Assembly (NCBI GenBank): GCA_023268965.1
Contig: JALRJE010000034.1
Location: 1-34,661 of the forward strand
DNA length: 34,661 nt
Direction of reading: 5' to 3'
Source: Crocinitomicaceae bacterium
GTDB lineage: Bacteria; Bacteroidota; Bacteroidia; Flavobacteriales_D; Crocinitomicaceae
Numbering within the stretch: position 1 is the stretch's first letter; the number at the start of each line of letters is the position of its first letter. Shown piece by piece: positions 30,548 through 34,652 of the stretch. A program made the translations under genes and the position numbers. The notes beneath the pieces are model-generated. The model searched no databases. It was not told where the DNA came from and worked only from the letters and a program-made list of their open reading frames with translations.

Positions 30548-31573
30548 CTACTCTGAAAATAATTCATGGCTATGTGCAATTAAAAATTTATCGATCAAAC
30601 GCGGAATAGGGTGACCTTCTAAGCTAGCTAGATCAAGAAAAATACAAGAAGAAGTCAACTGACTTTGCGCCGAAGAAAATATGAAGTAGGCCTCAATACG
30701 CTGATGTGTGAGCAGGTGTTCAAAGCGACCGCCTATTATTTTTTGACCGCTCAGATAAAGCTGCATTTGGCTTTCATCAGTAAATTCTTTCAGAGGAAAT
30801 TCATATAACCCTTCCCAAATATCTTTGGCCCCTCTTCTTTGATAAGCAAGTTGTTGTTGTGCATTTGGTATCAGGTGGTATACAAAATATCTTTTTTTAA
30901 CCTTTACTTTTTTGAGCTTAATAGGAAGACTGGCAACTTGATTTTCGCGATACGCATGGCAAGTGGTCAGAACTGGGCACGCGCTACAATTTGGTGAAAC
31001 CGGTTTGCATTGCAAGGCCCCAAACTCCATAATCGCCTGGTTGTGTTGTGCAGGGTTTTTAGTATCGAGCAATTCTTGTGCGAGCGCTTCAAAAATAGGT
31101 TTGCCAACGGCAGAATTGATGGGTTCTTCTACTCCAAAATACCGGCTCAAAACCCTAAATACATTGCCATCCAGAACAGCATGCGGTTGGTTGTAAGCAA
31201 AAGAAGCAATAGCTGCAGCGGTATAGGGCCCAACTCCTTTGAGTTGCAGTAATCCCTGATAAGTATTTGGAAAAATACTGCCAAAATCAGAGGTAATTTG
31301 CTGCGCAGTAGCATGTAAGTTGCGCCCCCGACTGTAATAACCGAGCCCTTGCCATAAATTGAGCACTTCTTGTTGAGAAGCCATGGCAAGCTGCTGCACC
31401 TGAGGATAATTGTGGATGAATTTGAGGTAGTATGGAAGCCCTTGTTCTACTCTAGTTTGTTGTAAAATAATTTCACTTAACCAAATAGCATAAGGGTCTT
31501 TGGTATGTCTCCAAGGTAAGTCCCGGTGGTGACTTTGATACCAAATTTGAATAGCTTCGCGAAGCGCTTGCAT
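30548..31573 (-). CDS. mutY: A/G-specific adenine DNA glycosylase
   Basis: This enzyme removes adenine mispaired with 8-oxoguanine. The 341 residues show catalytic Glu34 (WLSEIILQQTRV), the helix-hairpin-helix LKGVGPYTAAAIASF (111-125), catalytic Asp135 (AVLDGNVFR), and an iron-sulfur cluster with exact spacing Cys189-X6-Cys196-X2-Cys199-X5-Cys205. The C-terminal about 120 residues form a NUDIX-like recognition domain for 8-oxoguanine (GAKDIWEGLYEFPL). It is divergent from the HU gene and precedes the aminopeptidase gene. No good TAnnTTTG box is visible before it; TAATTTTC at 31597-31604 on the minus strand is the nearest. Confidence 0.97.
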   Translation of the reverse strand: MQALREAIQIWYQSHHRDLPWRHTKDPYAIWLSEIILQQTRVEQGLPYYLKFIHNYPQVQQLAMASQQEVLNLWQGLGYYSRGRNLHATAQQITSDFGSIFPNTYQGLLQLKGVGPYTAAAIASFAYNQPHAVLDGNVFRVLSRYFGVEEPINSAVGKPIFEALAQELLDTKNPAQHNQAIMEFGALQCKPVSPNCSACPVLTTCHAYRENQVASLPIKLKKVKVKKRYFVYHLIPNAQQQLAYQRRGAKDIWEGLYEFPLKEFTDESQMQLYLSGQKIIGGRFEHLLTHQRIEAYFIFSSAQSQLTSSCIFLDLASLEGHPIPRLIDKFLIAHSHELFSE

Positions 31574-31626
31574 AATTTATTTTAGAAAATTTGTCTGAAA
31601 ATTACGCATATATACTTTCTGTGGAG

Positions 31627-31634
31627 TATTTTTG
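31627..31634 (+). promoter_or_regulatory. -7 promoter element TATTTTTG for the HU gene
   Basis: This exact TAnnTTTG match lies 38 bases before the HU ATG, predicting a leader of about 35 bases. No convincing -33 element is present. Confidence 0.55.
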
Positions 31635-31672
31635 CCCCCGCAATTAATTACCTAATCAATTAACCCAGAGAT

Positions 31673-31963
31673 ATGACAAAAGCGGATATCGTTGCAAATA
31701 TTGCAGAAGAAACCGGATTGGAAAGAGCAGAAGCACTTCGTGCAGTAGAAGCATTTATGACTAACATCAAAGCTTCTATGGCTGACGGAAAAAATGTTTA
31801 CCTACGTGGCTTCGGAAGTTTTGTGGTGAAGGAGCGCGCGCAGAAGACAGGCCGCAACATCTCTAAGAATACCACGATTATCATTCCTGCACACAACATC
31901 CCGTCTTTCAAGCCTTCAAAAACGTTTGTAGATGAGGTAAAGAACAACGTTAAAGTGAAATAA
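31673..31963 (+). CDS. HU/IHF family DNA-binding protein
   Basis: This 96-residue nucleoid protein bends DNA as a dimer. It has the helical N-terminal dimerisation part (MTKADIVANIAEETGL), the GFGSFVVKERAQKTGRN beta-arm entry (near 46-62), an IIIPAHNIPSFKPSK stretch with the intercalating Pro region, and a Lys-rich C-terminus. HU and IHF-beta-like forms in this phylum cannot be told apart by eye. A terminator follows 33 bases after the stop. Confidence 0.96.
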   Translation: MTKADIVANIAEETGLERAEALRAVEAFMTNIKASMADGKNVYLRGFGSFVVKERAQKTGRNISKNTTIIIPAHNIPSFKPSKTFVDEVKNNVKVK

Positions 31964-31989
31964 GTTTTCGTTTTTTCTGAAATTTGTAT

Positions 31990-31997
31990 TACCTTTG
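31990..31997 (+). promoter_or_regulatory. -7 promoter element TACCTTTG overlapping a terminator
   Basis: This exact TAnnTTTG match directly overlaps the first two bases of the terminator hairpin. The predicted start near 32001 lies inside the 5' arm. It should drive the small basic protein gene and perhaps RNase E/G. The T-rich run at 31965-31977 is a loose -33 region. Confidence 0.55.
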
Positions 31998-32026
31998 CAC
32001 TCCCTTATCGGGGGTGCATTTTTTTT
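31996..32026 (+). terminator. intrinsic terminator after the HU gene
   Basis: TGCACTCCC (31996-32004) pairs with GGGGGTGCA (32010-32018), nine pairs with one G-U, around a 5-base loop, followed by eight T (32019-32026). Confidence 0.82.
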
Positions 32027-32061
32027 GTAACAAAGTACTAAACATATAACACCTTCTCATT

Positions 32062-32154
32062 ATGCCAAGCGGTAAAAAAAGAAAAAGACATAAGATGGCG
32101 ACGCACAAGCGCAAAAAAAGACTTAGAAAAAATCGCCACAAGAAGAAGAAATAA
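32062..32154 (+). CDS. 30-residue mS38/AURKAIP1-like small ribosomal protein
   Basis: ATG at 32062 opens a 30-residue frame ending TAA at 32152-32154. It starts MPSGKKRKRHKMATHKRKK and is almost entirely Lys, Arg and His. This matches the very short proteins annotated in Bacteroidetes as AURKAIP1/COX24 domain-containing, relatives of mitochondrial ribosomal protein mS38 and of the mycobacterial small-subunit protein bS22. It probably binds 16S rRNA in the small subunit. It lies between HU and RNase E/G, directly downstream of a promoter/terminator overlap. Its size makes it easy to miss. Confidence 0.8.
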   Translation: MPSGKKRKRHKMATHKRKKRLRKNRHKKKK

Positions 32155-32182
32155 TTCTTTATTCTATCATGTAAACGCATAG

Positions 32183-32210
32183 AGAGCTCATTGATTTTTC
32201 TTTGAGCTTT
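32183..32210 (+). other. possible RNA hairpin in the RNase E/G leader
   Basis: AGAGCTCA (32183-32190) can pair with TGAGCTTT (32203-32210), eight pairs including one G-U, with a 12-base T-rich loop. No T-tract follows, so it does not look like a terminator. It lies about 28 bases before the RNase start codon. Confidence 0.35.
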
Positions 32211-32238
32211 CATTGTTTCATCCTATAAATAATTTCAA

Positions 32239-33786
32239 GTGAATTTAGAACTCGTTGTAGACGCCCGTTCAAACGGCGTCTGGATAGCACTGCTGCGCGA
32301 CGGGAAGTTAATTGAGTTGCACGAAGATCGTGGCAATACAGACTTCTCCGTAGGCGACATCTATCTCGGACGGGTACGTCGTGTTGCCAATGGCCTGAAC
32401 GCGGCTTTCGTTGATGTCGGATATGAGAAAGATGCATTTTTGCACTATCACGACCTCGGCCCTCAATACGTATCTTTTTCAAAGTACGTTAAGGAGAGCA
32501 TCAACGGGAAGCAAAATGTTGCAGACCTTCAATACTTTAAACTAGAAAAAGAAATTTCCAAGGAAGGAAAGGTTTCCAATACCTTATCTTCTTCTCAAGC
32601 CATACTTGTTCAAGTAGCGAAAGAACCAATTTCTCAAAAAGGTCCACGCCTGAGCTCCGAAGTAACGCTCGCTGGACGCTATCTAGTTCTCGTACCATTC
32701 TCCGAGAAAATTTCTGTGAGTCAAAAAATCAAGGATAGCGCCGAAAAAGAGCGTTTGAAAGAACTCATGGACCGCATTAAACCCAAGAATTTTGGTGTCA
32801 TTATTCGTACCGTAGCCGAAAACAAATCGACTGCAGATCTCGAAGCAGATCTTACTAACTTGCTCGAAAAATGGCGCACCCTCCATGCCAACCTCAAAGG
32901 TGCTCAACCGCCTAAGCGCGTTCTTGGAGAGCTCAACACAACCAATTCCATTTTGCGAGACCTCCTCAATGGAAACTTTACCAATATACACGTCAACGAC
33001 GAAACCATGGCCCTTCAAATGAAGGACTACATTTCTGAAATTGCACCAGGCCGTGAAAAAATTGTGCGTCATTACGACAACCGCATTGGTATTTTTGAGC
33101 GTTTTGGGATCAATAAGCAAATCAAAACCCTATTTGGTAAAAAAGTGCCTTTGGCAAGTGGGGGTTACCTCATTATTGAGCACACTGAAGCCATGCACGT
33201 CATTGACGTCAACAGTGGCAACCGCAAAGGTGCCGATGGCCAAGAATCTAATGCACTCGCCACCAACATCGAAGCGGCAGAAGAAGTAGCTCGTGTGCTA
33301 CAATTGCGCGATATGGGCGGTATCATCTGTGTTGACTTCATCGACATGCATGAGCGTGAAAACAATAAGATTCTCTTCGATAAAATGAAGGAATTCATGA
33401 AATCAGACCGTGCAAAACACAACATGATTCCTCCTTCGAAGTTCGGAATTATTGAAATTACACGCCAACGTGTTCGTCCAGAGACCGACATTGCAACGCA
33501 TGAAAAATGTCCAACTTGTAACGGAAGTGGAGAAGTCCAGGCAAGTATTTTATTTGCCGAAGAAATCGAAAATAATTTGGCCTACCTCATCAACGATAAA
33601 GGGATGCGCGGGGTTACCTTATTAGTGCATCCTTATTTAGAGGCATTTTTTAAAATTGGTATCTGGAGCCGTCAGTTGAAATGGTTCCTTAAATACAAAA
33701 AATGGATTCCGGTGCGCGGGGTAACTGCTAATCACCTATTGCAGTATACCTTCGTCGACAAAGAGAACAACGAAATACCACTTTAA
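32239..33786 (+). CDS. rng: ribonuclease E/G
   Basis: This endoribonuclease is involved in rRNA maturation and mRNA decay. Translation starts at GTG (32239), giving the family N-terminus MNLELVVDARSNGVWIALL. Residues 36-150 are an S1 RNA-binding domain (GDIYLGRVRRVANGLNAAFV) with an insert rich in Lys/Glu/Ser. The catalytic DNase I-like domain has Asp323 (VIDVNSG) and Asp366 (ICVDFIDM), separated by 43 residues as in E. coli RNase E (303 and 346). CPTCNGSG (424-431) is the zinc-link. At 515 residues without a long C-terminal tail it is RNase G-like and has no visible degradosome scaffold. The stop overlaps the recX start (TAATG). Confidence 0.95.
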   Translation: MNLELVVDARSNGVWIALLRDGKLIELHEDRGNTDFSVGDIYLGRVRRVANGLNAAFVDVGYEKDAFLHYHDLGPQYVSFSKYVKESINGKQNVADLQYFKLEKEISKEGKVSNTLSSSQAILVQVAKEPISQKGPRLSSEVTLAGRYLVLVPFSEKISVSQKIKDSAEKERLKELMDRIKPKNFGVIIRTVAENKSTADLEADLTNLLEKWRTLHANLKGAQPPKRVLGELNTTNSILRDLLNGNFTNIHVNDETMALQMKDYISEIAPGREKIVRHYDNRIGIFERFGINKQIKTLFGKKVPLASGGYLIIEHTEAMHVIDVNSGNRKGADGQESNALATNIEAAEEVARVLQLRDMGGIICVDFIDMHERENNKILFDKMKEFMKSDRAKHNMIPPSKFGIIEITRQRVRPETDIATHEKCPTCNGSGEVQASILFAEEIENNLAYLINDKGMRGVTLLVHPYLEAFFKIGIWSRQLKWFLKYKKWIPVRGVTANHLLQYTFVDKENNEIPL

Positions 33787-34265: not shown

Positions 34266-34652
34266 TTAATTAGACTTGATAAGCTCACCTTGTTCAATCT
34301 GACGCTGAACAGGGTTGTTCATCATGATAGCTGTGCCTTGGGCTTCCTGTACGCCTGACACAGAGGTTGTAGCCTGTGTTGCTGCAGCTACCTGTGCAGC
34401 AGGAGATACCTGTCCCTGTACAGCCTGTACGCCCGCTAGCGTGGCAGCTACCTGAGGCTGGACTGTAGCAGGCTGTACCTGTGCAGCAGGAGCCATAGGT
34501 GCAGGCATAGCAATAGCAGCACCAAAAGGAGACTGTGCAGGCGTAGCTACAGGTGCAGCACCCGTTACCTGACCTGCAGTAGGCGCTACAATCTGACTTG
34601 CGTCTTCTTGAACGGTAGCTACAGTAGGCGTTGTAGGTGTCATCGTCTGCAT
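34266..34652 (-). CDS. Ala/Pro/Gln/Val/Thr-rich protein, unrecognised, possibly 5'-incomplete
   Basis: The frame runs from an ATG at 34652 to a stop at 34266 (128 residues) but stays open through the last three codons to the window edge, so the true start may lie outside. Composition is strongly biased: the middle is almost only Ala, Pro, Gln, Val, Thr, Gly and Met (for example QVTGAAPVATPAQSPFG and QVQPATVQPQVAATLAG). There is no hydrophobic signal peptide in the visible part. The C-terminal 15 residues (VQRQIEQGELIKSN region) are ordinary and hydrophilic. The DNA is visibly more GC-rich than the neighbours and holds in-frame repeats. I do not recognise a family. It could be a disordered linker-like region of a larger protein. 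It converges on recX with 9 bases between stops. Confidence 0.5.
   Translation of the reverse strand: MQTMTPTTPTVATVQEDASQIVAPTAGQVTGAAPVATPAQSPFGAAIAMPAPMAPAAQVQPATVQPQVAATLAGVQAVQGQVSPAAQVAAATQATTSVSGVQEAQGTAIMMNNPVQRQIEQGELIKSN
34390..34492. repeat. in-frame direct repeats in the low-complexity gene
   Basis: A 16-base unit ACCTGTGCAGCAGGAG occurs at 34390-34405 and 34477-34492, exactly 87 bases (29 codons) apart. GCAGCTACCTG occurs at 34384-34394 and 34444-34454, 60 bases apart. Both spacings preserve the reading frame. Confidence 0.8.

Follow-up and report, generated by a model that had tools for sequence, protein, structure and literature searches.

The HU-bS22 junction

The window, by which the whole 34,661-nucleotide stretch of DNA under analysis is meant, contains a gene for an HU-type DNA-binding protein that is followed on the same strand by a gene for the small ribosomal protein bS22, by a gene for a ribonuclease of the RNase E/G family (rng) and, after the latter, by recX (Table 1). 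The bS22 open reading frame (ORF) matches chain 5 of 7jil, deposited as both 30S ribosomal protein S22 and 50S ribosomal protein L38 (E 3.8e-10), and chain 10 of 9i5v (E 1.2e-10), while the nearest named relatives of the ribonuclease are Crocinitomicaceae metagenome-assembled genomes, from 97% identity downwards.

The gap between the HU and bS22 genes holds the hairpin TGCACTCCC-TTATC-GGGGGTGCA (31996-32018), which comprises nine base pairs, six of them G-C, around a loop of five nucleotides, with eight T residues directly after it. Folding of positions 31980-32030 gives -16 kcal/mol (z -4.49), a value equalled by 0 of 200 shuffles. This GC-rich stem with a short loop and an immediately following U-tract, shortly behind a stop codon, resembles an intrinsic (Rho-independent) terminator, and differs from one in that its 5' arm also holds the edge of the -7 box and the predicted start of the downstream gene. 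A search of Rfam with positions 31400-32400 returned no matches up to E 1.

The primary-sigma promoter consensus of Bacteroidota consists of TTTG at -33 and TAnnTTTG at -7 (available text of PMC7366714 and PMC9723704). The latter occurs without mismatch in the window, as TACCTTTG, whereas the -33 element is poor: the candidate TTCG, placed by eye, stands 19 nt from the -7 box. Two bases of the box are also the first two of the terminator stem, confirming the overlap that an earlier note on this DNA had described, and the predicted start falls inside the same arm, so that the transcript would begin within the terminator of a different gene. Elsewhere in the window, an ORF on the minus strand at 34266-34652 encodes low-complexity repeats rich in Ala, Pro, Thr, Val, and Gln.

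Table 1. Genes and signals around the HU-bS22 junction, in window positions.
Feature	Position	Strand	Basis
HU-type DNA-binding protein, upstream gene	31673-31963	+	PF00216, E 4.2e-29
Possible -33 element TTCG, weak (consensus TTTG)	31967-31970	+	by eye
-7 box TACCTTTG (TAnnTTTG, exact)	31990-31997	+	sequence
Terminator stem, 5' arm TGCACTCCC	31996-32004	+	hairpin scan, folding, covariation
Predicted transcription start (+1 = box G + 5)	32002	+	inferred from published box position and A enrichment
Terminator stem, 3' arm GGGGGTGCA	32010-32018	+	hairpin scan, folding, covariation
T8 tract TTTTTTTT, predicted release site of HU transcripts	32019-32026	+	hairpin scan
bS22 (also deposited as L38), 30-aa ribosomal protein, first gene of the downstream unit	32062-32154	+	chain match
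RNase E/G family ribonuclease (rng)	32239-33786	+	PF10150, E 3.8e-96; TIGR00757 above cut-off

Predicted Start Site and the Truncated Transcript

In Flavobacterium psychrophilum the TAnnTTTG box occupies positions -12 to -5 (available text of PMC9723704), and in 800 kb from six related genomes an A stands five bases after the final G of the box (G+5) in 0.52 of 104 promoter-like boxes, compared with 0.31 of 580 boxes within ORFs. The predicted start is therefore placed at G+5. A TTG with a spacer of 19 nt is the commonest spacing among the same promoter-like boxes (0.106, against 0.024 for ORF boxes). The base at G+5 in the window is a C, which counts against certainty about the exact start, given that starts in Bacteroides thetaiotaomicron favour purines (45% A and 41% G; available text of PMC7366714).

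The stem thus begins six bases upstream of the predicted +1. The earlier note had set the start near 32001, within the 5' arm, and had left the promoter-initiated RNA short of five of the nine stem pairs; the start is likewise predicted inside the arm here, but the box position in F. psychrophilum moves it by one base, so that six pairs rather than five lose their 5' partner. An RNA beginning at 32002 is predicted by folding to keep a 4-bp inner hairpin of -4.5 kcal/mol that is detached from the U-tract, and in one beginning at A31999 six pairs (-8.3 kcal/mol) would survive, the stem again standing off the T-tract.

Conservation of the Overlap in the Family

Conservation was followed in 135 loci of the family, hand-picked from the listed places so as to touch all 24 genera among the matches listed, of which 133 have a readable bS22 gene and upstream ORF, the other two (L008 and L188) ending at contig ends. 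The -7 box is present in 131 of the 133 (placed by hand in L142 and L145), exactly in 120 and with one mismatch in 11; in the two loci without it (L197 and L198) a different gene lies 2 nt upstream. The 131 gaps comprise 125 distinct sequences. Outside the family, within the same order, 31 of 32 loci have a gap of at most 74 nt before bS22, mostly promoter-free, and a box was seen by eye in the 114-nt gap of L233; L070 likewise has a box, in a gap of 62 nt.

An overlapping terminator was scored where a T-tract follows a stem that starts anywhere from G-1 to G+6 and has 6 or more base pairs, three or more of them G-C. Such a hairpin occurs in 90 of the 131 loci, in 16 of the 24 genera among the matches listed, starting at G-1 (29 loci), at G (47) or at G+2 (14), so that the overlap is conserved in the gaps of relatives, where the earlier note had proposed to look for it. 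A scan of the gaps that left the start position unrestricted agrees, save for a few odd loci and one clade whose hairpin lies 26-30 nt after G. On average, the full hairpins of the 90 loci fold at -16.0 kcal/mol, compared with -5.8 kcal/mol for RNAs cut at the predicted +1, and 9 of the 90 truncated RNAs fold at -8 kcal/mol or better. The base of the remaining stem stands 2 nt from the T-tract in 12 loci, 3 nt in 5, 4 nt in 34, 5 nt in 30, and 6 nt in 9.

Compensatory change was assessed in an alignment (A1) of 46 of 47 representatives, from which L185 was excluded for its long loop. In it, 87.8% of cells are paired, a share that falls to 36-69% when the register is slid, and 34 cells are doubly changed (reached by 0 of 500 shuffles), in five pairs (reached by 6 of 500). 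The stem at HU-bS22 is thus kept by compensatory change, as expected of an intrinsic terminator. Loop lengths vary among the representatives, and T stands opposite G in 12 of the 46 at columns 12/38, as does G opposite T in 33 of the 46 at columns 8/42. Of the 34 doubly changed cells, just two (column 10) precede +1, because the CACT found there is nearly invariant.

A Second Locus Before tRNA-Thr

When a covariance model of the HU element was searched against 199 genomes of the order, 80 of them gave matches at E<=0.01, 53 from the family of the window, 26 from a second family (f9), and one from a third; among 395 genomes of the class, 20 gave a match at E<=0.001. Ten f9 loci were found directly before tRNA-Thr and three elsewhere. 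ARAGORN reads the series in these leaders as Thr, Tyr, Gly, Thr (in four of the loci the tRNAs were recognized by eye), and the tRNA operon is followed, where the stretch reaches that far, by what we take to be an EF-Tu-like (tuf) ORF. The gene preceding the f9 tRNA-Thr leader is hpf-like, by PF02482 in L309 and by sequence in the others. The element also precedes tRNA-Thr in seven Crocinitomix-like genomes from the window's own family, where the gene before it is a different one. Single, hybrid-like elements (L313, L319, L320, L322, L325, L326, and L328) stand before genes that we take to be map, rpsA, typA, grpE, rimP (two places in one genome), and HU, and further single contexts are presumably those before rplM, a membrane pyrophosphatase gene, and tRNA-Leu.

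In a protein-anchored survey, 119 genomes were searched with hpf and 113 matched; among the best 30 of these matches, which were fetched, tRNA-Thr lies within the stretch in 18 and no tRNA is found there in 12. All 18 tRNA-Thr leaders have the box and 9 have the overlapping terminator. Of the remaining leaders, L390, L400, and L401 (by script) and L389 (by eye) have a separate terminator ahead of the promoter. Both -33 and -7 elements are often visible in tRNA-Thr leaders by eye, and CC...GG after +1 recurs. A promoter set in a terminator in this way, behind hpf and ahead of tRNA-Thr/Tyr/Gly/Thr, was noted among L296, L303, L309, L310, L321, L323, L324, L327, L329, L371, and L386-L415, and several of the leaders show, by eye, a boxA-like (T)GYTCTTTGA shortly 3' of the U-tract.

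The 9 terminator-type sequences of this survey were aligned with 10 found by the model, the latter selected by their resemblance to the HU element (A3, 19 sequences; L311, L312, and L314-L318 were left out for a 3' arm shifted in the alignment). Paired cells make up 97.9%, and there are 29 doubly changed cells in six pairs, each measure being reached by 0 of 500 shuffles. Of these 29 cells, 15 lie at columns 10-12 (G+2 to G+4), upstream of the predicted +1, including nine exchanges of C-G for G-C at column 11. Since RNA initiated at the promoter should not contain these bases, their covariation points to selection on RNA arriving from upstream, and it is best explained as such; of all the evidence, this speaks most strongly for the terminator half.

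A Proposed Terminator Read According to the Start of the RNA

The element is interpreted as a combined terminator and promoter in which the position where transcription starts decides how the same DNA is read, to which we assign a probability of roughly 0.8. Transcription coming through from HU would yield RNA with both arms, in which the 9-bp hairpin abuts the U-tract, and would stop at about 32019-32026. Polymerase recruited by the overlapping TAnnTTTG promoter would start near 32002, within the 5' arm, and the outer, U-tract-proximal part of the stem could not form in that RNA, because 31996-32001 are absent from it. Only the weak inner hairpin would remain, off the U-tract and at the extreme 5' end, at a point where the RNA is still short and largely within the polymerase, which would then continue into bS22-rng. 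The position kept throughout the family, the covariation of the stem and the reappearance of the arrangement at a second locus, where compensatory changes precede +1, support the earlier proposal that HU transcripts terminate and transcripts from the embedded start pass through, both as predicted events. Promoter-initiated RNA would not be entirely free of a hairpin, as the inner one is predicted to stay.

On balance, it also seems probable that a terminator gated in this way by the start site recurs in Bacteroidota, acting in full on RNA from upstream and persisting otherwise as a harmless, perhaps protective, 5' stem-loop. The discriminator (CACT, CAGT, CACC, or CCCT) would double as the outer 5' arm, with a covarying partner, and the device would insulate operons of the translation machinery (HU from bS22-RNase E/G, and hpf from tRNA-Thr/Tyr/Gly/Thr-tuf), having arisen more than once.

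Loci Without the Overlapping Terminator and Alternative Explanations

The overlapping terminator is absent from 41 of the 131 family loci. Ten of these (L196, L199, and L201-L208, in the six genera g28, g32, g35, g44, g46, and g47) form a Crocinitomix-like clade with a conserved, strong hairpin, aaaCTTCCTG..CAGGAAGttt plus T-tract, that starts 25-29 nt after the box G. It looks like an attenuator lying wholly downstream of +1, before bS22-rng. In the other 31 loci, the best helix starts at G+4 to G+7 in 16, compared with 6 of 104 promoter-like boxes and 16 of 200 ORF boxes, and a helix at +1 to +3 reaches p<0.05 in 15, compared with 4 of 104 and 12 of 200. Fisher tests of the 31 against the 104 give 4.5e-8 and 2.2e-8, which are upper limits on significance and overstate the evidence because the 31 loci are interrelated. 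A significant helix at +1 to +3 is also found in 57 of 84 distinct terminator-type gaps. The start hairpin often persists where the U-tract terminator is missing, so that at HU-bS22 it seems to be retained for something beyond termination, which is perhaps not its sole role. A +1 hairpin was also considered as a trait of strong promoters generally, an idea that arose from 20 other sites of TANNTTTGCANNCC in the same genome, and was rejected: among the 19 testable sites the best helix lies in that range in 3 and the +1 to +3 helix is significant in 1, to be set beside the 4 of 104 promoter-like boxes.

These counts lend weight to an alternative that we place only a little short of even odds, in which what has been conserved is a stem-loop at the very 5' end (+1) of the bS22-rng mRNA, serving for example in protection from 5'-end-dependent decay or possibly in feedback by the RNase E/G encoded downstream, and termination of HU transcripts is a use added in many species. 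The hairpin that many relatives carry at +1 or beside it recalls the ompA-type 5'-terminal stem-loop, but differs in terminator-type loci, where it forms the inner portion of a longer stem completed only in read-through RNA. This alternative leaves the U-tract and the pairing of bases upstream of +1 unexplained. The residual hairpin of the window is weak, generic CANNCC-type promoters of the same genome mostly do without a +1 hairpin, and at tRNA-Thr the +1 helix is individually significant (p<0.05) in 0 of 9 loci without the U-tract and 1 of 9 with it. That the hairpin and U-tract might also act on promoter-initiated RNA, as an attenuator tuning bS22-rng, has a model in the Crocinitomix-like loci and is improbable for the window, whose stem, like those of the other 89 loci with the overlap, has its base upstream of the predicted start. 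A general antiterminator formed by pairing of the orphan 3' arm and U-tract with downstream sequence in the +1 RNA, which had seemed striking by eye in some genera, was rejected (mean z -0.49, with 8 of 90 loci at p<0.05 against shuffles). By genus, g30 (mean z -1.59, n=5) and g36 and g45 (n=1 each) are still candidates for it. In L151, L171, L192, L200, and L241-L244, the orphan 3' arm and U-tract could pair with a downstream A-rich ...CAC.

An inverted repeat that covers the predicted +1 could also work at the DNA level, as an operator at the start site, and not as an RNA hairpin; this is very unlikely, given the T-G appositions in the stem, the varying loops and the T-tract placed directly after the 3' arm, and no regulator was identified. 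Scarcely credible is a plain HU terminator that the box overlaps by chance, with HU, bS22, and rng relying on read-through. The short, mostly promoter-free gaps of other families do make read-through from the preceding gene plausible there, but in the window's family the box is present almost throughout, even where the terminator is missing, the arrangement recurs before tRNA genes, and promoters and terminators in general overlap only at chance level.

Relation to Known Systems and Significance

In the frd-ampC region of E. coli, the terminator of the upstream operon overlaps the expression signals of the next gene, with a hairpin that follows the start of ampC and attenuates this gene as well. 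In the window, by contrast, the predicted start falls within the 5' arm and no complete hairpin follows it, whereas the ten loci of the Crocinitomix-like clade have a complete hairpin after the start and so resemble ampC more closely. A full-text search, covering titles and the openings of abstracts and few subscription journals, returned no printed description of a promoter placed in a terminator in this manner.

If the combined reading is correct, adjacent co-oriented genes would be insulated compactly, in fewer than 40 letters and without intervening DNA, and the start point of the RNA, rather than a ligand or protein, would decide whether the hairpin terminates. It would also offer an evolutionary test, as pairing is kept at bases that the downstream transcript lacks and that would be selectable only through read-through RNA. 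Annotation usually takes a predicted terminator and a predicted promoter to rule each other out; in Bacteroidota, the two should be permitted to overlap. That the inner hairpin persists where the U-tract is missing also prompts a testable question on how the RNase E/G operon is controlled from its 5' end.

Frequency and Possible Origin of the Element

Overlap of promoters and terminators as a genome-wide habit was considered and set aside, being at chance level in 800 kb from six other genomes. A looser finder, run without the window, placed 4 of 38 pairs of box and terminator no more than 60 nt apart at -2 to +7 (control, 2 of 34), and a second setting placed 4 of 37 there (control, 3 of 28). 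A strict finder reported 77 terminators in 834,661 bases, window included, and of its four same-strand box pairs within 60 nt, three fall at -3 to +6, the window among them. In the organism's own genome, the covariance model finds one strong place (E 2.9e-5), the next best having E 1.23.

The sequence TTTGCACTCC occurs at 7 places in this genome, compared with 1 for a reversed control, and three of the six other places are promoter-like by eye, standing before a tRNA-Ser-like gene, a ribosomal-protein-like gene and another tRNA-like gene. The 5' arm therefore looks like an ordinary strong start region of the organism, and the terminator looks as if it had been made by adding the complement and a T-tract to such a region. 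Similarly, TANNTTTGCANNCC occurs at 21 places, compared with 6 for the reversed control, an enrichment that suggests a class of strong promoters with a CC start. Several of the TANNTTTGCANNCC places precede tRNA or ribosomal-protein-like genes.
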